Notes under the pieces: model-generated
Databases searched by the model: none
What the model was told of the DNA's origin: nothing
The model's input: only the letters and a program-made list of their open reading frames with translations
Made by a program: the position numbers and the translations under genes
Source of the DNA: Cladochytrium replicatum
Taxonomy: Eukaryota; Chytridiomycota; Chytridiomycetes; Cladochytriales; Cladochytriaceae
Assembly (NCBI GenBank): GCA_025526935.1
Contig: JAHLKD010000072.1
Span: 239,411-303,410, forward strand
Reading direction: 5' to 3'
DNA length: 64,000 nucleotides
Part shown: piece by piece, positions 7,088 through 62,935 of the stretch
How positions within the stretch are numbered: the stretch's first letter is position 1
Layout: each line of letters starts with the position of its first letter

Positions 7088-10000
7088 ATGGGTGTCAAGG
7101 GTCTGTGGTAAGCTGGTGACTGGCTGGGCACCGGGTGATCACTATCAATGACTCTCGAGCCGATTATAGGTCGCTCGTCGAGGCTGTCGCTCAACCCGTC
7201 GCAGTAGACTCGCTGGCCGGACTGCGGCTGGCAGTCGATATCCTACCTATTTACTGACCAAACTAACAAACCTCGTCAGCTGTATCTGCGATTGTTCATT
7301 CTTCACTCTTTCTGCTTCTCCTATGCCACACGCCAGCATATGGCTACACCAGTTCCTCAAAGCAATGCGCGACCCAAAAACGGGCGACCCTCTCCGAAAC
7401 GCTCACATCCTCGGCTTCTTCCGTCGCATCTGCAAACTGATCTTCCTCGGCATCCGTCCTGTCTTTGTCTTTGACGGTGCTGCACCCGCTCTTAAACGCG
7501 CTACAATCGCTCTCAGAAAGAGAAGATTGGAGGACGGTGAGAGATCATTGGCCAGGACTGCGGAGAAGTTGCTTCAGGCGAGAATTAAGCTGCATACCGT
7601 GAAAGCGGCAAGGAGTGCTTTGGAAAATCAGGATCATGAAGAGGAGAGTGATGGAGATGAAGATGAAGATGTAAGGATTGTGGCGACAGAGTTGGCAGGA
7701 TCGAAACGGAAACGGGACGAATATGATCTGCCGGATCTCCCTTCGCAGTACGTAGAACAACAAAATATAATCCAGCATCTCAAAGGGCTCAATGTATTGA
7801 TTCATGAATGATGTTTGATATAGATCAGTAAAGTCAACCTACACTGATCCCGGCTCGGATCCCGTCACCGATCCACGGATGGTCTCCGAATCCGAGCTCC
7901 GCGCCTTTGTCAACAACCACCGCCAAAACCTCGATCTCTCCTCACTCTCCCTCGACTCCGCCGACTTTGCCGCCCTCCCCGTCGAAATCCAGCACGAGAT
8001 AATCCTCGATCTCAAAACCCAGTCCCGAGAATCCTCCTTCCGCCGTCTCTCCGACATGCTCCGCGACGCGCCCACGTCGACTGACTTTTCCCGCCTCCAG
8101 ATCCAAAATCTCGTCGTTCGGAACGAGCTTACGTGGCGGCATATCAAGTTGGTGCAGACTGCTGGGGTGAGCGTGAACCCTGCGACGAAGAAGAAGCGGT
8201 ATGTAAATACGATGAAGCGAATTGTTGCGGAGAGGAACAAGGAGTTTGTCCTTGTGAAAGGGGACGATGAAGGTGGAGGGGAGAGGGGGTTGAGGAAGGC
8301 GGCGGCGGGGTGGGTTATGAAGGCACGGAGCATGTTTAGACCCAACGAGAGCGCGGTGGAGATTGGACCGAGAGGCGAACTGAATGTGAAGAAAAGTGGA
8401 AGTGGGCATCCGAGCAGTGGAGGCGTGATTGTGCTGTCCGATGAAGAAGATGGGAAGAGTGTGCGTGGGGAGGGTGATAGTGATAGCGACAGTGTATGGA
8501 TTTTGCCTGACACGGATCAAGCCGTTGAGCCCCCACGAGAGGCATCGCGTGTGGGAGAACCACCCCCGCCATTTGACATCACCGACTCGGACGAAGAAGC
8601 CGTGTTTGAACCCATTCAAATTCCCACACTTCCACCACCGTTCGAGGACTCGGACGAAGACGTCGAGTTCGAGCCTGTGGAGATTGACACTGAAACCCTC
8701 ACAGCGCTCTTTGTACCCGACACCGTACCTATGGAAGCCGCTCCGACGCCTGCTGACCCCGACGAGGACATCCTGATCGCAACACTGGTGAACACGACCC
8801 CGAGCTCCGCATCCACGATCGAACGCATTGCGGTTGCGCTGAAGGCTATTGCGCCGTGGTGGGATGGGAGCGCCAGGGGGCTGGTTGAGGATGTAGAGGG
8901 GTGGGATGTTGAGAAGTGCGTTGAGGAGTTAAGAAGGGTTGAGAGGGTGAGTGGTAAGAAGGGAGGTGGGGATGAGGGGGTGAGGAGGGGGTTCGAGGCT
9001 TGGGAAGCGTTGGTGAGGAGTGTGCTGGAGAGGAGGGGTGGAGTCGGTGACGGTGAGAGAGGTGATGAGGAGGTATATGAGGCGTTGGAAGATGAGATTG
9101 ACGCTCGTTCACCAAGAGCTTTAAGTGACTCCGTCGAGGTTCCAGAATGCAACATGCTGTCACCTAGAGTCTTCAGCGATGTCGTAGAATATCAGGTTGA
9201 GGTTCACTCGCGTCGAGGTGCGAGTCCCCGTGAAGTTGATGCTCCTCGAACTTTGAATACTTCTATTGAGGTTCGGTCAGTATCTCCAGTGCATTCGGTT
9301 GCCTCGGAGGGTCCCGCTACACCTGAGGGATTCCAGGTGCTTGAAAATCGCTCCCCATCATTGGGCTCATCTCCACGCCCACCACCCCCACCCCGACCAC
9401 AGGCACCTTCACCCGTCACCCTCCCACTCTTCTCACGAACACCTTCTCCCGATATCCCCGACGCCCCCGCCAACATCCCCGGCGTCGTCCCCGGTGCCGT
9501 CACCGATGACGCCATCTTCCTCGAGCCGCACGAAGTCGACGGCGCCGTTGACGTCCCCGTCGCACTCACGACCGAGGAATCCGAGTACGCGCGCTTCGTC
9601 TCCTCGCTTTCCTCGCAACCCCTCGAGTCCATCCAGCACGCTCTCGAGGACGACCTTGAGCGCCTTCGTGCCGAAAAAGCGCGCGGACGACGCGACGCGG
9701 CGGGGCTAAGCGGGGAGATGGTCGAGGAGACCAAAGACGTTCTCAGACTCTTCGGGTTGCCGTTTGTTGTCGCGCCGACGGAGGCGGAGTCCCAGTGTGC
9801 TTGTTTGGAGAGCTTGGGGATCGTGGATGGGATAGTGACGGATGATTCGGATGTGTTTTTGTTCGGGGGGAAGAAAGTGTTCAGAAATTTCTTTGACTCT
9901 GCAAAGTATGTGGAGAGGTATGATGCTGTGGAGCTGGAGGAGACGTTGAAGCTTGATAGGGACAAGTTGGTCAGGCTTGCGTATTTGCTTGGGAGCGATT

Positions 10001-10795
10001 ATACGCCTGGGGTGCAGGGAGTCGGGATTGTGAGTGCTGTGGAAATTTTGGATGTGTGGAGAGGGGAGGAGGGGCTGGAGGAGTTTGCGAGGTGGTGTGA
10101 GAGGGTACACAAAGGGTTGCTTAGCGTGAAGGAGGTGCCGAAGGACAAGAAAAAGTTTGTGAGTATTCATGAAGACGAAGTAGCTGCTTCAGAAAAGTTT
10201 TCTGATGCTTAGGCTTTCATAGTTCCGACTGGCAAACAAGATCGAGCTTCCGGAACGATTTCCGGACCCTCGCGTGCGGGAATCGTACCTGAAACCCACC
10301 GTCGACGACGATGACACGGATTTTACATGGGGCATCCCAGATCTCGATGCCATCCGCGCGTACATGCTTGACAAACTCGGCTGGGCACCAAGCAAGACCG
10401 ACGAAGTGCTTCTTCCCGTAGTGCGCGAGTGCACGAAGCGTCTTCATGATAAGAAGCAGACGACGCTCGACAGGTATTTCGGCTCATCGCCGACGAAAAG
10501 GGTTGGAGCGAAAGTCAAGAGCGCGAGGTTGAGGAAGGTTGTTGCGGGGTGGATTGGGGAGGAGGGGGTGGAAGATGTGGTTGATTTGGAGGCTGAGATG
10601 GATGCGGCGAGGGGGAAGAAGGCGAGGAGGAAGAAGACTGGGGATGGAGCAGCAGCGAAGAAGAGGAAGAGAGATGACGATGAGGAAGGGGAGGGGGGAG
10701 TGGGAGAGTCAGGGCGTGGACGTGGTTCGAAGAGAGGAGGGAGAGGGCGAGCGAGAGGGAGAGCAAGAGGGAGTAAGGCTGGCGAGAGTCCATAG
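7088..10795 (+). CDS. RAD2: RAD2/XPG structure-specific DNA repair nuclease
   Basis: 5'-flap/bubble endonuclease that makes the 3' incision in nucleotide excision repair; nuclear. Exons 7088-7107, 7170-7237, 7330-7747, 7824-10158 and 10223-10795 give about 1137 aa. The XPG N-domain begins MGVKGLW and contains catalytic Asp30 (in [10 protein letters not shown]) and a second acidic site in VFVFDG near 78. A long acidic spacer separates it from the XPG I-domain near 800-930, with [21 protein letters not shown] and the helix-hairpin-helix [18 protein letters not shown]-like box QTTLDRYF (near 1026) and a basic, Gly/Arg-rich C-terminus follow. Intron 2 (7238-7329) has no GT donor; an AT-AC intron with a U12-type donor restores Asp30 exactly. 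The start is fixed by the invariant MGV-GLW N-terminus. Confidence 0.93.
7238..7329 (+). other. AT-AC intron with U12-type donor in RAD2
   Basis: Intron 2 of RAD2 starts ATATCCTA, matching seven of eight positions of the U12 donor consensus ATATCCTT, and ends in AC. Joining 7237 to 7330 makes GTC-GAC-GCC-AGC (Val-Asp-Ala-Ser), restoring the invariant catalytic Asp30 motif. No GT-AG choice in this stretch gives an open frame with the motif. A branch site is not obvious; the closest is a TTCTTCAC-like string about 23 nt before the acceptor. Confidence 0.75.
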
Positions 10796-17927: not shown

Positions 17928-19388
17928 TCAAAAGCGTAGCTTTACGTTTAGTACAAACTCATGAGGAGCAACAGTAAGACCATCTTCTTCGGCCAGGCTA
18001 ACACCCTGTCCTTCAACTGGAGAAAACTCTAGTTTGTGGAATATTCTCGCCGTGGCAACAAAGATAGTGCGAGCTGCAAGAGATACACCTGGACAAATCC
18101 GTCGTCCCGTGCTGAATGTCAACATATTGTCCGAGAGGTAACCCAATTTTGATTCGCTTGCTGCGATAGTATCGATATGGCGCTCTGGGCGGAATTCGTC
18201 GGGCGAGTCGGGGTGCATTTGTTCGTGCAGTGCGGTGATGTTTGACATAATCATTGTACCCTTAGGAATCAGGTATTTGACGCCGTTGACTTCGACCTCT
18301 CCGTCCTCTGAGGCCGCATGGGGGATACCAAGTGGAGCAGGAGGTCTCATCCTGAGCGTTTCCCTAATGATTGCCTTCAGGTAGATCAGCTTGTCCTGGT
18401 CCTCGTAGGTGGGTGCCCGATCACGACCAACAACGCGATCGAGCTCCTCATGAAGCTTGCGCTGGACTTCAGGTTTGCTCACAACAAACGCGAGAAGCCA
18501 CTCGAGCGACGTTGAAGAGGTGTCGAAAGCACCGCCGACGATGTCTCTCGTCATCCTCAAGATCGTTTCGACAGACGTATCTTCTCCCTGCTTGAGCAAA
18601 GCGGTGGTGAAGCAGTCAGGTGCAGGCTTTCCGGCGTCGAGAAGAGCCTTTATCTTGTTGATTTGGGCTCGGTGGTAATCTGCGAGCTCATTTGTGACCA
18701 CCTGAAGTTGAGACACCTCGCTCCCCGGAATATATTGAGTGATGACGTCAGTCGCTTTGGAGATGCCAGCCAGACGAGAAATCTCGATGTGGGTAAAGTA
18801 AACCTTCTCATACTCGGGATCTGTAATGTCGCTGTACCGCACGCCGTAGACAGTTGCAAGAATACCATTCGCGGTGAGCAACTTGAAGTTTCGTCGAAGC
18901 TCCACAGTTCCATTCCCGTTCTTAGTCCATCGAGAGATCAGCGCATCAACTTCCTCTTCGAGAGCGGGGCCAACTTTCGCAACAGCCGACTCTGTGAGAA
19001 TGGCGTGTACCGTCTTCCTGTATGTACGCCACGTAGGGTTGTCGGGGGAAGTTGCAAGCGAGGTGAACCCCAGACCGAATACGCGGAGTCGGATATCAAA
19101 CTGCGGGCGAGAAAGGAATGGTGCATTGGCGAGGATTTTGCGGTTATATGCGGGATCGGAGATGATAACAGTCGGATGTGGTCCGAGATAGACAGTCATC
19201 ACTGGGCCGTAGGTCTTTGCAATCTTTGCGAGGGCACGATGGGGATGCGGGTAGATCAGATGGGCTGAGCCGATAAGAGGCAGAGGTCGGGGCCCCGGAG
19301 GGAGCCTGGAGCGTGAAACTTGAAGAAACCAGAAGCCGATCAAACTTGCAAGGATCACCGTGGTGGCGATAAGCACTGTTGAGAGCAT
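17928..19388 (-). CDS. Cytochrome P450 monooxygenase, intronless
   Basis: Membrane-anchored (class II) P450 of 486 aa. The N-terminus is a hydrophobic anchor (MLSTVLIATTVILASLIGFW) followed by the proline hinge LPPGPRPLPLIGSA. Further along are the I-helix GGAFDTSSTSLEW, the K-helix ETLRMR, the PERF-like FRPERH and the heme loop FSTGRRICPGVSLA. The ATG at 19388 is chosen because it starts the anchor; the frame stays open upstream but that part has no domain. There is no intron, unlike most genes nearby. It needs a separate reductase; the two fusion enzymes next door carry their own. Two relics of this family lie at 16.7-17.8 and 37.4-38.3 kb. Substrate unknown. Confidence 0.9.
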   Translation of the reverse strand: MLSTVLIATTVILASLIGFWFLQVSRSRLPPGPRPLPLIGSAHLIYPHPHRALAKIAKTYGPVMTVYLGPHPTVIISDPAYNRKILANAPFLSRPQFDIRLRVFGLGFTSLATSPDNPTWRTYRKTVHAILTESAVAKVGPALEEEVDALISRWTKNGNGTVELRRNFKLLTANGILATVYGVRYSDITDPEYEKVYFTHIEISRLAGISKATDVITQYIPGSEVSQLQVVTNELADYHRAQINKIKALLDAGKPAPDCFTTALLKQGEDTSVETILRMTRDIVGGAFDTSSTSLEWLLAFVVSKPEVQRKLHEELDRVVGRDRAPTYEDQDKLIYLKAIIRETLRMRPPAPLGIPHAASEDGEVEVNGVKYLIPKGTMIMSNITALHEQMHPDSPDEFRPERHIDTIAASESKLGYLSDNMLTFSTGRRICPGVSLAARTIFVATARIFHKLEFSPVEGQGVSLAEEDGLTVAPHEFVLNVKLRF

Positions 19389-19461
19389 CGTGATGGATAG
19401 AATCTGTAGAGCACTGATACTGAGAGTGTGAGATAATGAAGATTCCGGGTGATGTCCAGAC

Positions 19462-19467
19462 TTTATA
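19462..19467 (-). promoter_or_regulatory. TATA box of the P450 gene
   Basis: TATAAA on the minus strand about 75 bp upstream of the P450 start at 19388, a usual distance for a TATA box with a short 5' UTR. Confidence 0.5.
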
Positions 19468-19715
19468 GCTGGTGCACTGGGGATCATTGCTGTTGGCAAC
19501 TTTTCGCACGGAGAAACTTTATTGATCACGGAGAAATATATTGGGGTGGGAAAGTGCGTAGCAAGTTCCGGTTTGTTGGCCATTTCTCCGTCATAAATCA
19601 CCGATATATTGATCCAAAACCATACATGATATCTCAACAATTGACTTGGTGAGAAAAGGGGATAAAAATGAATTTTTTTGAAACCAGCAAACCAATAAAA
19701 TGTTGAGAGAATGAT

Positions 19716-22700
19716 TCAACCCCAAACATCTTCATTGTAGCGACCAGCATCCTGTAGCTCTTGGACATGCTTTGCAGCTTCTTCAGGAGAAAGACCTCCA
19801 ATCTGCGCGGCGATTTCTTCAACAGCTGCACGGACATCTTTTGCAAGCTTGGACGCATTTCCGCACACATAAAGCACAGCCCCTTTCTTGGCAAGGCTCC
19901 ATAGCATAGCACCATCGCGAAGGAGCAAGTCCTGAACGTAGGTTTTGGGCTCTTCGGGATGTCTAGAGTAGGCGACGTGGCGTTTGGTCAGCGTTCCGTT
20001 CGCCTCCCATACCTCAACCTGCTTCTGGTAGATGCAGTGACCAGCAGTTCGGCAACCAAAGTAGAGATGAGCTTCCCCTTTTGCCCCGGTGAGCTCACGG
20101 TGCTGCAAGAATCCAAGGAACGGAGCCAGTCCAGTGCCTCCACAGATCATCACTAAGGGTGTTGAGGGGTCCGCCGGAAGGCGGAAAGTGTCTTTAACGC
20201 GGAGGACACGGGCACTGATGTGAGCCGGAGTCGGAGTCGAGCGAGCTATAAAGCCCGACGAAAGACCGTAGTAGGTTTTGATGTTTTCAGAATTGGGGTT
20301 CTTTACACGATCAGCCACGACTCCCACAGTCAAGGCCGCAATGTTTTCCTTGCCGGGGCGAACGGCAGATGCGATCGAGTATCGACGAGGAGATATTGCC
20401 TGGATGACTGACAGGACGCCTTTAAGCTTCAACTGCTTTGCAGCATGGGGGAAAGCCTCGATGAGCTCATAGACGGTGCGATACAGGCTCACGAAGCGCT
20501 CGAATTCTTCTTTGCAGCCAGGGTCAGCGAGTTTGCGCAAAACCGCACTGTGTGACTCGCTCTTTGGGAGACGATCAGCGCACACCTTAAGAAGGCTACG
20601 CGTGGGGGGTGCGGTCAAGTCGGCGTAGTAGGTTAAAGCATTCTTCACGGTGCATGGGCCATTGATAACCGCAGCCAGTGATCGTCCCGTGATATCCTCC
20701 GAAGCATTGATCTCAAAAGTTGCGTCGGGAACAAGACCCAGAGCGCGGATCACCGAGTCCACAAGAGCAGAGTCGTTTACAGGGTACACCTCGATGTGGT
20801 CTCCAGGAGCATACTTGCTGTTCTCTGGCGCAAGCTCGATCTCGACGTGTCGAATGCTCGCTTCCGCCGGGTTCGACATCAACTCTTCGTTAACCACGAT
20901 CTTGGCCGGGTAGAAATTATTGGTGTTGAGACGAGCTGCTGCCCATTTTTCGGTTTTATCGGGTGTAATCACGCAAACGTCCACACCGTCAATGTCCGTT
21001 GCACTGATCTCACCGATGCCCTTTGAAAGTTCAGCTTTGTCTCCACCGAATGTCTGCACAACAGTAGCCCAAAGCTCTGTCATGAACTCATGGAACGAGT
21101 GCTCCATGTCCTGAGTAGCATCTCCCTTTCCAGCGGCAACCAATCTAGTTCCACCCAGTTTCTCCAGGGACTCGTCAATCTTTTGCGGGAACGCTTGGAA
21201 TGTGCGCCACTGAGAGTTTCCGCATCCGAACACCGCATAACCCGCACGTTTGAAGGGCTGGGCGAGAGCAATTTCCGGCTGATCGAGCCACTTGTCAAAC
21301 TTGACGGCGTTTTCCGGCGGATATCCGTTGTAAGTTGCAGAAACAACTACCACAATTTCCTCCAAATTCACACCCATAAGCGTTTCCGCAGCTGTCAGCG
21401 CTGAATCCTTTTCCGAGGTACGAACAGCGACGTAGTCGTCCAAAGTCTTCAAAGTCAGTTTCTCGAATCCGACCTTTTTGGCAGACTTTGCGATGGTGGA
21501 GGCAAAGTCCTGTGCGGTTCCCGTGTTGGAGCCGTAAACAACGGTCAACGGAGGGAACGGAATGGATCCAACTTTGACAGACGGAACAATGACCTGTGAG
21601 GCTTCCGCGTCGACGGTTGTAATCTTTTGCGGGCTCCCAGCAACTGAGCGTTCAGGGAGCTCGGTCCTCTTCGAAATTTTCACCTTGAGATTCAAAGGAC
21701 GAGTGGTGAGCGCTCGAGGATCGTATCGCACTTCGTTGGGAGTGACCGGTGTAATCACAAACTTTCGCAGCCAGATCGCGGTAACAATAATCGCCTCTTG
21801 CAGCGCGAAGGGACGTCCAAGGCATCCACGTGGTCCAGTAGAAAACGGGAGCCAAGAGTACAGAGACCTCTGATTCTCATTCTCGGGAAGGAATCGGTCC
21901 GGATTGTATTCCTCCGGGTTCTCGTAAATCGCAGGGTTGTGGTGAATTTGGTCGACACCAATGACCACCATCTGACCCTCCTTTATCAGGTAGTCGCCTG
22001 GGAGGACAATGTCTTTTAGGCACTCTTTGACCAGGCCTCTGACCGGCGAATGAATTCGGAGAGTTTCCTGAAGAGGAGTTATTAGAGTTGTAGTTATGTG
22101 TTTGGAAAAAATCCTACCTTGAGACAGCACTCTATGTACTTCAGTTGATTCACCTGCTGCGAGGTCGGGATCCCATCTTCAGTAATTCCGACGTCGACGA
22201 TTTCCTGGAGGCACTTTTGAAGAACGGCAGGGTATCGCGAGAGCTCGAAAAAGGTCCACGCCAGAGTGTTCGAAGTTGTTTCGTGTCCTAGAAAGGGAGA
22301 ATACAAATTTGAATACTAAAGAAAGCGCAAGAAAACCAAAACCATCATACCAGCAATCAAGAACGTGATGACCTGGTCTCGGATGAGCAGATCAGTCATG
22401 GAAGACCCACTGTCCGAGTCGACAGCGTTCAACATGAACCCAAGCAAGTCTTTCTCGGAGTCTTTAGCGTCAGGAGACTCTTTGCGAGCCTTAAGAACTT
22501 CCTCGACTGTTGTCTGCATCAGCTTCAGTTCGCGCTCGTACTGGGCATTCGCACTAGTAGGCAGGTACTTCATGAACTGGGGTCGATTGGAACGAGCACG
22601 ACCCTCATTAAGTGTGAACGCCATTGCCGAAATGAAGGGGTGAACTTTCACATCAGGGCCATCAATCAGATGAAAATCGAACCCGAAACCAATCTGCGAC

Positions 22701-23677
22701 ATCGCCGCTGATTCAGTTGATAGACCTTGAGGTATGATTAAAATATACCTTGCCGATGGTTTCAAAAGTAAGGCACGTGGTCCAGAAGTCCAAAGCAACT
22801 TCCTGGTCGGTTTGCGCAAAGTGATCAAAGACTTTGGCAGCGCTCTGGGCGATCTCACCCATCTCAACCGTGTAGCGTTTGATTGCTTTCGGGGAGAATG
22901 CGGGCATCAAGAGTTTGTGCGCGAGCTTCCAGTCCGGATCATCGGTGTTGGTGGTAACTTATCGCAAAGGGATAGTCAGCAAATCGAAGAACATATCCCG
23001 TTCAACTTACAGAGTCCCTGCCCACCAACAGGCTTAACCTCGGAGAGAATACCGAGGATCTTCTTAGTGAAGTACTCTCCGTCCTTAGCAAAGATTTCAG
23101 CATACCTAAAATCAGAAGATTAGAATAAATCATCGCACTGCTCGAACAACTGTAACTCACATGGGGTCGTTAGTAGAAACAAAATCACGACCAAACACAT
23201 TAAGGTGGACAATTGGACCAAAATCAGTGTGAAGTTGTCGCATTTGAATCAATCTTAACACAAGGTTACGGGGGAATATTCTCTCGGTTTGTTATGCTTA
23301 CGGATCGGGAGTAACGTCATAAAGGTTCCCGATAACAGGACGTCCACGGGGTCCAGGGATTTTGTTGTATCGCTGCTCGGCCGGTTGCACAATAACCGTG
23401 TAGGCACTCTCGAGATCTTCGTAAGAATCGATAGGGACGCCGTTCAAATCTTTCAAGGTGAATCCTTGAGATTGGTTGAAAAGATCAGCGTCAAACACGC
23501 TCTGATACTGTACACCTTACCTTGGTCGATACCAAACTTTGCACCGACGTCCTCATAAAAGGTGAAAGGGATGGATGGATCACCGGAAGTGGACGGGGGA
23601 GGCAAACGCACGATCTGTCCATCTTTCTCGACATCGCCGCCTTTGAGCACAACCACGGTGAATCCGACTGCTGGCAT
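19716..23677 (-). CDS. Self-sufficient P450-reductase fusion, CYP505-like (copy 1)
   Basis: P450 fused to its own NADPH reductase, like fungal P450foxy and bacterial P450 BM3, which hydroxylate fatty acids near the chain end. Exons 23677-23521, 23464-23302, 23253-23161, 23105-23011, 22957-22749, 22693-22351, 22287-22118 and 22067-19716 give 1193 aa. The P450 part starts at IPGPRGRPVIGNL (near 90) and has I-helix AGHETTSNTLAW, K-helix ETLR and heme loop FSTGPRGCLG (Cys492). The reductase has the FMN loop YGSNTGTAQDF (near 590), FAD motif RRYSIAS, NADPH motif GGTGLAPFLGF and C-terminal EDVWG. No TM anchor is present. Oddly, about 85 extra residues precede the P450, resembling a beta-grasp (ubiquitin- or doublecortin-like) domain. 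Confidence 0.93.
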
Positions 23678-23739
23678 AGTATTCTTTTCTTGTCCTCGCT
23701 CTGATTTGAAGTCTTGACACCATCGATGGGTGATCCGGC

Positions 23740-23746
23740 TTTTATA
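23740..23746 (-). promoter_or_regulatory. TATA box of fusion P450 copy 1
   Basis: TATAAAA on the minus strand, about 65 bp upstream of the start codon at 23677. Confidence 0.5.
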
Positions 23747-24293
23747 CAAGTGCAGACCCTGGCCAGATCCGACTATGTCATCGCCTTTCGGAGCCTCCGG
23801 CAGTGCCAGCAGTGCAGGAACATTCGGAATTGGCCGCTGAGACATCAATCAGCATCGATCGGATGTTTGATGCACTTTTCCATTTTTTCATGCCTCGCGG
23901 TGAAAAACAAAAAAATTTGTTGCATCATCACTCGATAAGAATGATCCTAAACCGGAGGTGTCCCCGTCCTGCGATTGCAACAGAAGGTATCACAGAGGAC
24001 AGATATGGTATAATTTGAGAATTAATCTTCTCCTCAATGATCTTTGCTGGCGGCCTTCAGAATAGCGGTATGATGATCCTCCAGCAAATCTTAGTGGGAT
24101 GTCCGTTCGTATCCCACTATCAACGCAGTCCGCTCAGTTTGACGAGCTATCGATTGAGAAGAGCCCCGTGAATGCTGAAACAGGTAAATACTATTCAATA
24201 AATACAGCGCAACATCGTTGTAATACGATGATGTTTCAAGGAGCCCACCCACATCCAGCGGCAATTTATGATCGATCCCCCACGCCAAGATTC
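23747..24293. other. Spacer between the tandem fusion P450 genes
   Basis: About 550 bp between the stop of copy 2 and the TATA box of copy 1. No open frame with domain similarity is seen. It must hold the 3' UTR of copy 2 and the upstream control region of copy 1. Confidence 0.5.
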
Positions 24294-27200
24294 TTAACCC
24301 CAGACATCTTCATTGTACCGTCCACCATTCTGCAGGTCCTGGATATACCTAGCCGCCGCTTCCTGGCTCAACCCTCCAACCTGCACCGCAATTTCCTCAA
24401 CCGCTGCCCGCACGTCTCTGGCCAACTTTGACGCATTCCCGCACACAAACAGCACACCCCCTTGCTGCACCAATTTCCACAGCATTGCACCATCACGAAG
24501 CAGCAAATGCTGCACATACGTCTTCTGGTGTTCCGGGTGCCGCGAGTACGCAACATGGCGTTTCGTGAGGGTACCGCTCGACTCCCATTTCTCGATCTGG
24601 TCCTTGTAGATGCAGTGGTCCGCGGTGCGGCAGCCAAAGTACAAATGCGCCTCGGCTTTTGAGCCGGTCAGCTCGCGGTGTTGGAGGAAGCCTAGGAACG
24701 GCGCGATGCCCGTCCCAGCGCAGATCATCACGATTGGGGTGAAGGGGCTCTCGGGAAGATGGAAGGAGTCTTTGACGGGGAGCACGCGGGCGCAGATGCT
24801 GACTGGGGTCGGTGTGGAGCGAGCGATGAAGCCCGAGGAGAGACCCGGGTAGGTCTTGGATTCACCACTGATCGGGTGCTTGACGACGTCGGAAACAACG
24901 CCGACGGTCAAGGCTGCGATCCTTTCTTTGCCTGGACGGACGGCCGACGCGATCGAGTAGCGACGAGGCGACATCGCTTGAACGACCGAAAGCACGTCCT
25001 TGAGCGAGAGCTTTTTCGCTGCTTCGGGGAAGCCTTCGATGAGCTCGTAGACCGTGCGGTACACGCTCACGAAACGTTCAAACTCTTCTTTTGAGCCCGG
25101 TTCGGTAAGCTTGCGGAGGAGACCGCAGTTCGAGTCGTTTGGCGGAATACGGTCCGCGCAGGCTTTGAGAAGTGTACGCGACGGCGGTGCGCTGAGGTCG
25201 GCGTAGTATGTGAAAGCATTTTTGACGGTGCAGGGACCATTGATGACTGCGGCGAGGGAGCGCCCGGTAATGGGTTGAAGCGACTCGATTTCAAAAGTCG
25301 CATCGGGAACTAGACCAAGTGCTTTGATCGCAGAGTCCACGAGCGCGGGGTCATTTTGAGGGTAAACTTCCAAATGGTCTCCGGGTGTATAATTTGAGTT
25401 TTCCGGGGCAAGCTCGATCTCCACATGGCTGATACTGGATTCCCGTGGGTTCGGCACGAGCTCCTCGTTGACGACGATGGTGGCCGGGTATGCTTTGTTG
25501 ACGTTCTCACGTGCAGCGGCCCACTCCTCAGCATCACCCGGGGTGATGAACCGAACGTTCACGCCGTCGATCTCGCTCGAGCCGACCTGTCCAAGCGCCT
25601 TGGAAAGCTCCACATTCTCCCCACCGCCAAAAGTCTGCACGACTGTCGCCCACAGCTCGGTCACAAACTCGTTGAAGGTGTTTTCCATGTCCTGAGTCGC
25701 GTCGCCCTTCCCGGTTGAAATGATTCGAGTTCCACCGAGCTTCTCGAGAGCCTCGTCGATCTTGTTCGGGAATGCTTGGAAAGTGCGCCATTGCGAGTTA
25801 CCGCATCCAAAGACGGCAAAACCAGTGCGTTTGAAAGGCTGCGATGCTGCCACGTCTGCATTGTCGATCCATTTATCAAACGCCGCTGCGTTTTCGGGTG
25901 GATACCCGTTGTATGTCGAAGAAACAACGACCACGAGTTCCTCCAGGGTCACACCCATGAGTGTCTCCGCGGCCGAAAGAACAGAATGTTTTGCAGCAGT
26001 CGCGCGGTGAGAGACGTAATCGTCCAGCGTTCTCAAGCTCAGTTTCTCGAATCCGAGCTGTTTCGCCGATTTGGCGATAACTGTGGCGAAATCCTGTGCG
26101 GTGCCGGTGTTGGAGCCATAGACGACGGTCAATGCTGGCAAAGCGATGGAGCCGACTTTGACCGACGGCATCACCACTTGGGATTCCTCTGCATCGACGC
26201 CGGAGATTCTTTGGGCGAGGGCTCCGGCGGAAGGTTCTGGGAGCTCGGTCCTCCGCGTGATCTTCACTTTGAGGTTCATGGGCCGAGTCGTGAGAGCTCG
26301 AGGATCGTACGTCACTTGTTCCGGTGACATTGGTGTAATCACAAACCTCCTCAGCCAGATCGCCATGACGATGATGGCCTCCTGCAACGCAAACGGCCGA
26401 CCGATGCACCCGCGCGGGCCGACGGAGAACGGAAGCCACGCGTACAAAGATCTCTGGCTCTCGTTCTCGGAAAGGAAACGGTCGGGATCGTATTTGTACG
26501 GGTTCTCGTACACTTCGGGGTTGTAGTGGATCTGGTCGACGCCTACGACGACGGCTTGACCCTTTTTGATCAAGTAGTTTCCGGGGAGGACGATGTCTTT
26601 CAGACATCCTTTGCTGAGGCCTCTGACTGGAGAGTGCATTCGAAGTGTTTCCTTGAGAATTAAAAGATTGGGCATCAACACCAATGGATTAATTTGCAAC
26701 AGAAATGTACCTTGAGACAGCGTTCGATATGCTTCAGCTGGTTGACCTGCTGTGAGGTGGGAATACCGTCCTCTGTGATGCCCACATCGACAATTTCCTG
26801 CAGACACTTCTGAAGGACAGCAGGGTACCGCGAGAGTTCAAAAAACGTCCATGCAAGAGTGTTTGAGGTTGTTTCGTGTCCTATCACAAAGAACGTGAGC
26901 GAATGAAAAAACGGGATCCCAAACAAAACTCCCACCGGCAATCAAGAAAGTGATAACCTGATCGCGAATGACACGGTCAGTCATAGATGACCCCATGTCT
27001 GGGTCAACAGCGTTCAACATGAACCCGAGCAAATCCTTTTCAGAATCCTTTGCGTCGGGAGATTCCTTGCGAGTTTTGAGGACGTCCTCGACGGTCGATC
27101 GCATGAGCTGAAGCTCACGCTCGTACTGGGCGTTGATTCTCGTGGGCAAGTATTTCATGAATTGGGGGCGGTTGGCGCGAGCGAAACCTTCGTTGAGGGT

Positions 27201-62159: not shown

Positions 62160-62935
62160 GCATGCGTCAAAATTATTCTTGTCTGTAGGAAAAAGAGATC
62201 TGAACAAATAAAAGCCTCCTTGATCCCATTGTGGCATTTGCAGACTACCGCTAGTAGCTGAAAGAGATTTGAGGCAAATTTTCCTGGATCCGACGGTTGC
62301 CTTATGACCCTGAAGATAAATCCTTTGCAGACGACTTAAATTGAACTTGGTATTGTAAGCAGTAGAGTAGCCTTGTTGCTACGATCTGCTGAGATTAAGC
62401 CTTTGTTCATAGATTTGTTCTCTAGTAATAGAGGACAAATAATGTTGGTTCCTTAGTGTGCTTAATAACTGGACTCTAATGGCGCTAGCAGGTTTACTAT
62501 AGAGGCTGCTAGAGGAAAGGAGCCCATGGGGCTATAATGTTCCTCTAGCAGGTTTTCTAGTAATCTTGGTAGGGCCTTGCTAGGGGCCTTTACTTGGGCT
62601 CCTGTAGGGGAATTTGGACGGGACTCCATCCGAGCGGGCGTTCTGGGTGGAAGTCGTAATCCGCGTAGGCCTTTACATGGTCTTTATCTCAGGGCTGGGG
62701 TGAAGATAGTAGAAACTCTCTCTAAGCTGGGTCTCGAAGAAAGATTTTTGGCAAAGTCCCACAGAACAGCGACTTTCTAGTAGGGATGCCTATAGAGATG
62801 CTGTAGAGCAGGTAGAGGGTCTCCAGGTAGAGGATGTTTCTAGAGAAGTTTGCTAGAGGTAAGGATAGAGGTGTTAGAGAAGGTTCTCTCAGAGAGCGTT
62901 GGAGCAGGGTGTTAAGATTGCTAACCCCAAGCACT
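62160..62935. repeat. CTAG-rich degenerate repeat region, no gene
   Basis: About 775 bp without a coding gene. From about 62430 the sequence is dense in short motifs such as CTCTAGCAGGTT, TCTAGTAA and GCTAGAGG, in both orientations. CTCTAGTAA is also part of the tandem array that follows, so this may be its decayed edge or a related dispersed repeat. The short stretch 62210-62330 also resembles the end of the preceding gene (TTTTCCTGGATCCGACGGTTGCCTTA versus the coding TTGTCCTGGACCGGACCGTTGCCTTA, compared in pieces), a partial duplication of the 3' coding end. Confidence 0.5.

Follow-up and report, generated by a model that had tools for sequence, protein, structure and literature searches.

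How could the second intron of the RAD2/XPG gene be removed, if none of the possible GT-AG cuts joins the reading frames on its two sides? This question was raised by the window, the whole 64-kb stretch of DNA that was analysed. The preliminary description had proposed an AT-AC intron of the U12 type, which would recreate the catalytic Asp30 of VDASIW, and a minor spliceosome retained by the organism. Both proposals gained support, and a difference in the U6atac snRNA and in many minor donors was revealed in addition, which is more unusual than the RAD2/XPG intron itself.

Structure of the RAD2/XPG gene

Table 1. Position and basis of the RAD2/XPG features and of other features described in the text (L032 is a locus outside the table's default reference, the window)
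Feature	Position	Strand	Basis
RAD2/XPG exon 1 (MGVKGLW, initial part)	7088..7107	+	
RAD2/XPG intron 1, ordinary GT-AG	7108..7169	+	intron enumeration
RAD2/XPG exon 2, last base is base 1 of codon 30 (Asp)	7170..7237	+	enumeration, alignment
RAD2/XPG intron 2, AT-AC minor-type, 92 nt, phase 1	7238..7329	+	enumeration, alignment
Intron 2 donor ATATCCTA, 7/8 to ATATCCTT	7238..7245	+	sequence read, pairing table
Intron 2 top branch-site candidate TTCTTCAC, 6/8	7299..7306	+	equals shuffles
RAD2/XPG exon 3	7330..7747	+	enumeration, XPG_N match, alignment
RAD2/XPG intron 3, GT-AG	7748..7823	+	enumeration
Long open frame containing RAD2/XPG exon 4 (frame limits, not exon limits)	7824..10212	+	open frame
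P450 and P450-reductase-like frames	17928..26837	-	
LSU rRNA 3' end match	62315..62416	+	
Major U4 snRNA, 77.6 bits	L032 1504..1661		
tRNA, about 280 nt off the U4 gene	L032 1938..2010	opposite to U4	

Possible cuts for intron 2 were enumerated downstream of exon 1 and the GT-AG intron 1, with introns of at least 26 nt, donors at 7175-7331 and a last base not beyond 7399. The borders read directly were GCAGTCG / ATATCCTACC (7238) ... CCTATGCCAC (7329) / ACGCCAGCATATGG. In the full enumeration of donors 7175-7331, no GT-AG intron kept the frame into the start of exon 3, and a looser protein target again gave none in the same region, which upheld the claim that intron 2 could not be spliced as GT-AG. 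Three GC-AG introns were in frame into exon 3, with Asp30 lost in all of them, and three more were added by the looser target, including GC-AG 7212-7336, which gave VDSIW with loss of the conserved strand before it. Models with GT-AG, GC-AG and AT-AG ends were discarded from the enumeration with strict and looser targets.

The complete LAVDASIW was kept by three cuts, AT-AC 7238-7329, TA-CA 7239-7330 and AT-AC 7240-7331, which are one 92-nt removal offset by 0, 1 or 2 bases. The last of them gives an identical protein with GAT instead of GAC, and a U12 donor is present in the first alone. Four further cuts, with a shortened exon 2 and the ends CT-AC, AC-AC, CT-CA and TC-AC, kept AVDASIW.

The joined RAD2/XPG exons matched XPG_N with 100.4 bits, and the joined protein matched yeast Rad2 (4q0r) with an E value of 4.1e-36. 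The intron 2 junction lies within residue 30, and the alignments with Rad2 and human ERCC5 run across it, gap-free up to residue 44, in agreement with the recreation of Asp30 by the cut 7238-7329.

The donor match over seven of eight positions, claimed earlier, was confirmed, and ATATCCT has a chance of about 5.6e-5 at one given position, calculated from base composition. In the pairing table this donor, with T at +7 and A at +8, was suboptimal for both U11 and U6atac. The best branch site, 23 nt from the intron end, was equalled or surpassed in 6610 of 20000 shuffles. Judged from its sequence, intron 2 is most plausibly a minor AT-AC intron whose donor is good though not ideal and whose branch site is unremarkable, and it is very probably a real intron of this rare class. 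Inside it, at 7254-7279, CGTCAG stands behind the U2-like motifs CTGAC and CTAAC and forms a decoy for a 3' splice site of the major class.

Minor introns elsewhere in the genome

The genome around the window (50.5 Mb, 198 contigs) was searched with donor and branch-site patterns. The pattern ATATCCTT..TCCTTAAC..AC gave eight rows at five places, with 0 for the reversed control. ATATCCT..TCCTTRAC was matched 19 times (2 reversed), and GTATCCT..TCCTTRAC three times (3 reversed). AT donors were enriched in this +7 T class and GT donors were not, and none of the three GT hits (L055-L057) held a convincing intron. Going by the +7 T class, the minor-intron set may be almost all AT-AC.

A total of 19 distinct minor-intron joins, with intron 2 of RAD2/XPG included, were run through protein searches, and 14 of them matched a known family or structure across the junction. 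These were the joins of XPG in the window, DNA polymerase delta, CstF-64, SETD3-like, Clp1, Glyco_transf_22/PIGB-like, YL1, Exportin-5, ChAPs (L075), MICU-like (PDB match only), inositol polyphosphate multikinase (4frf, 37.7 bits, whose Pfam match and top-scoring chain begin at or after the junction), LRR_4 (27.0 bits, at the cut-off), kinesin (27.0 bits, cut-off 29.3) and Treslin_N (19.0 bits, cut-off 26.5). As short sequences, the joins of CstF-64, Treslin and SETD3-like had no Pfam match at 0.01; matches came with longer stretches, with less strict thresholds or in PDB. The other five joins (L037, L052, L053, L062 and L070) gave no match in these searches, and L070 was CDK-like by eye. The further AT-AC minor introns in conserved genes support the U12-type reading of RAD2/XPG intron 2, whose own branch site is at chance level.

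Raw hits beyond the 19 joins were assessed by frame and eye only. Among the 40 raw hits with AT donors, L038, L039, L041, L042, L046-L048, L050, L051, L054, L061, L067-L069, L072-L074, L076 and L078 were put down as chance, coding or unclear, and L049 and L066 were judged possible minor introns. A TTLL-like frame was seen by eye at L038. Going by the style of such genes, with ChAPs as another, the organism may be a fungus outside Dikarya, perhaps a zoosporic one. Two ChAPs-like paralogues (L060 and L075) share an intron position to the codon, with the donor ATATCCA, TCCTTAAC and AC at the end, while the intron sequences have diverged.

Minor snRNA genes and PDCD7

The snRNA searches, which had been proposed in the preliminary description as a check on a retained minor spliceosome, were compared with 14 control genomes. 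U6atac was identified as one full-length match of 34.4 bits (Rfam cut-off 33) among the 46 of 1956 first-look candidates that were scored. A TATA box lies about 31 nt upstream of it, its 3' end has a T run, and none of the 14 controls matched. It was the only one of the four minor snRNAs above its Rfam cut-off.

U4atac was also full-length; its 42.8 bits fall short of the cut-off, 53, and one of the 14 controls matched, likewise below the cut-off. The U4atac and U6atac genes sit on separate contigs, and their RNAs are complementary: the duplex had -41.6 kcal/mol, where shuffles had -23.6 (sd 3.8) and 0 of 2000 were as low. A second U4atac match was rejected as the major U4 snRNA, with a tRNA nearby (Table 1).

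The U11 candidate (L030 1360-1617) scored 36.0 bits against a cut-off of 39, with an E value of 0.0011 in the locus-level search of three loci; genome-wide the alignment was shorter, with E 0.067, and one of the 14 controls matched below the cut-off. It carries an Sm site and a TATA box about 31 nt upstream, and is 258 nt long against 134 for the model, owing to an enlarged internal region. A normal-sized U11 (L030 1501-1617), whose 5' end would pair with A7 donors, was dropped, because the TATA box suits the longer form starting at 1360.

For U12, a family search of the genome at E 0.001 gave no match, and the same was true of the control genomes. A weak candidate of 19.7 bits (cut-off 53, genome E 2.4) contains GAGTAAGGA and has a TATA box about 33 nt upstream; 7 of the 14 controls match at that loose threshold. 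Its pairing with U6atac was no better than that of shuffles (553 of 2000), and a loose U12 motif which also hits it gave 79 matches against 100 for the reversed pattern.

The protein PDCD7 (U11-59K) was represented by 22.2 bits in a single exon and 35.7 bits on joined exons, with a cut-off of 27. The proposed snRNA check was borne out for U6atac and its pairing partner U4atac; for U11 and U12 it gave candidates below the cut-offs, of which the U12 one is weak. Together with PDCD7 and the AT-AC introns in conserved genes, the minor snRNA genes favour a retained minor spliceosome. The genome seems to possess one in which an snRNA that recognises donors and many of the splice sites it targets have undergone a joint change.

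The U6atac box and two proposed classes of donors

Minor donors are regarded as almost free of variation, since each has to pair first with U11 and afterwards with U6atac. In the U6atac found here, the donor-binding site reads GAGUGGAGAGAUUG against the Rfam consensus GAAAGGAGAGAAGG, without gaps. Opposite +4 to +8, the box has GUGGA and not AAGGA, a difference of two bases, so its complement is UCCAC and not UCCUU.

A donor search without T at +7 was designed to test this altered complement. ATATCC[ACG]..TCCTTAAC gave 21 matches in the genome against 2 reversed, and comparable raw hits with +7 T and TCCTTAAC numbered 11. Of the 21 donors, 16 had A at +7, 4 had G (one of which, L073, resembles coding sequence) and 1 had C, and 8 of the 16 A7 donors continued with C. 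The order A > G > C is the one expected for U as a partner. The background after ATATCC was flat (A26 T23 C24 G22, counted over 275,088 bases from the window and the flanks of the loci).

The pairing table held 16 donors, 14 of them protein-matched (the exceptions were L060 and L070), with A at +7 in eight, T in six and G in two. UCCUU occurred in 5/16, a departure from the canonical code of T at +7/+8 with an AAGGA box. All five T7 donors besides XPG were UCCUU, which suits the Rfam-consensus box and U11 (CAAGGG), and the ten A7 or G7 donors matched the GUGGA box at four or five positions, wobble included.

It is moderately probable that this lineage has a rewritten minor donor code, in which the box AAGGA became GUGGA and over half of the minor introns observed followed it, from UCCUU to UCCAC, UCCAU or UCCGC. 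Two donor classes would result, the first suited to U11 and the second to U6atac, in a set that is maybe almost all AT-AC.

The variation at +7 and +8 could instead reflect a relaxation of constraint, or the genome could have another U6atac of canonical sequence, with the match to GUGGA being coincidental. Relaxation would predict a flat +7, against the bias to A in the non-T donors over a flat background, although UCCUU donors are still present and the association of +8 with +7 was modest in Fisher tests on the raw hits (T8 in T7 against A7, p 0.04; C8, p 0.43). A second U6atac might lie among the first-look candidates, of which 46/1956 were scored, yet a canonical copy ought to outscore the one found. 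Coincidence is opposed by the fact that the donor search had been made to test the U6atac complement. This explanation is possible and rather doubtful.

Splicing of intron 2

Intron 2 might also be an AT-AC intron of the U2 type, spliced by the major spliceosome. Its weak U12 branch site and the presence of CTGAC and CTAAC at 7254-7267 agree with this, but the donor ATATCCT is unlike GTAAGT, the AG behind the U2-like motifs (7278-7279) yields no usable frame, and minor snRNA genes occur in the genome along with further ATATCC introns that have TCCTTRAC, which makes major splicing improbable. A sequence error or a decayed RAD2 gene with no functional intron is more improbable still, since, even though the evidence rests on one assembly, long conserved frames stand on both sides, the XPG core aligns and a 92-nt insert with a 7/8 U12 donor lies precisely at the break.

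The leading explanation of the whole, of high confidence, is a U12-dependent AT-AC intron in codon 30, phase 1, of RAD2/XPG, in a genome which would have kept the minor spliceosome with an altered U6atac box and altered donors. U11 and U12 would recognise the donor and the branch site, then the U4atac/U6atac complex would bring U6atac, which would take the place of U11 at the donor, and exon joining would recreate the catalytic Asp30. In this lineage the U6atac box GUGGA would be fitted by the more than half of minor donors seen that carry A or G at +7, mostly followed by C, and the older class UCCUU would still suit the Rfam-consensus box and U11. The splicing itself, the contacts of U11 and U6atac, the change of box and donors in response to each other, and the direction of that change are predictions, built on the frames, protein junctions, snRNA genes, U4atac/U6atac complementarity and donor counts read from the sequence.

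Relation to other minor splicing systems

Human XPG/ERCC5 has an AT-AC intron. It belongs to the same gene family, and the protein aligns through the intron 2 junction, a likeness at the level of the gene family. Larue and co-workers reportedly described in 2021 a transformed minor splicing in Physarum polycephalum, a lineage-specific change of the system like the one suggested here. More than 20,000 minor introns are given for that organism in PMC8329584, unlike the 40 raw AT-donor pattern hits of the present genome, in which the change at +7/+8 is matched by U6atac.

U12-type AT-AC introns have an RTATCCTTT donor and an UCCUUAACU branch site, according to PMC2846911, where RTATCCTT is required and change is tolerated only at +5 or +6. 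The AT-AC ends, the ATATCC donor core and the TCCTTRAC branch site of the pattern-found introns agree with this. Unlike those introns, many donors here have no T at +7, so they fall outside that donor rule, and the XPG intron has no significant branch site. The share of AT-AC among minor introns is about 26% in human and 77% in Blastocystis (PMC10639083), and Phycomyces EST data gave AT-AC to GT-AG ratios of 9:8 by one method and 8:12 by another (PMC2846911).

As with the minor spliceosomes of non-Dikarya fungi (PMC10639083), minor snRNAs, minor introns and PDCD7 were found in a fungus-like genome; the U6atac box GUGGA, and enrichment of AT donors alone in the +7 T class, set the present genome apart. 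In the major system, two classes of 5' splice sites are fitted to U5 and U6 (PMC11732430). The donors here are likewise split by the best-pairing snRNA, with U11 and U6atac in place of U5 and U6. A joint change of the U6atac box and donors was not found reported in the titles and abstract openings searched, which cover few subscription journals.

If true, a change in U6atac and in a large share of donors would be a natural experiment in compensatory mutation. It would show a splicing code being rewritten with old and new sites coexisting, and whether different donors can satisfy U11 and U6atac. The RAD2/XPG minor intron and the others in conserved genes are added to the fungal record.

Additional observations in the window

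At gathering cut-offs, Rfam gave a single match in the window, 102 nt long and isolated, to the 3' end of eukaryotic LSU rRNA (73.9 bits). On the minus strand, a frame for a P450 was observed, and two more frames that combine P450, flavodoxin, FAD and NAD domains and resemble P450-reductase fusions.
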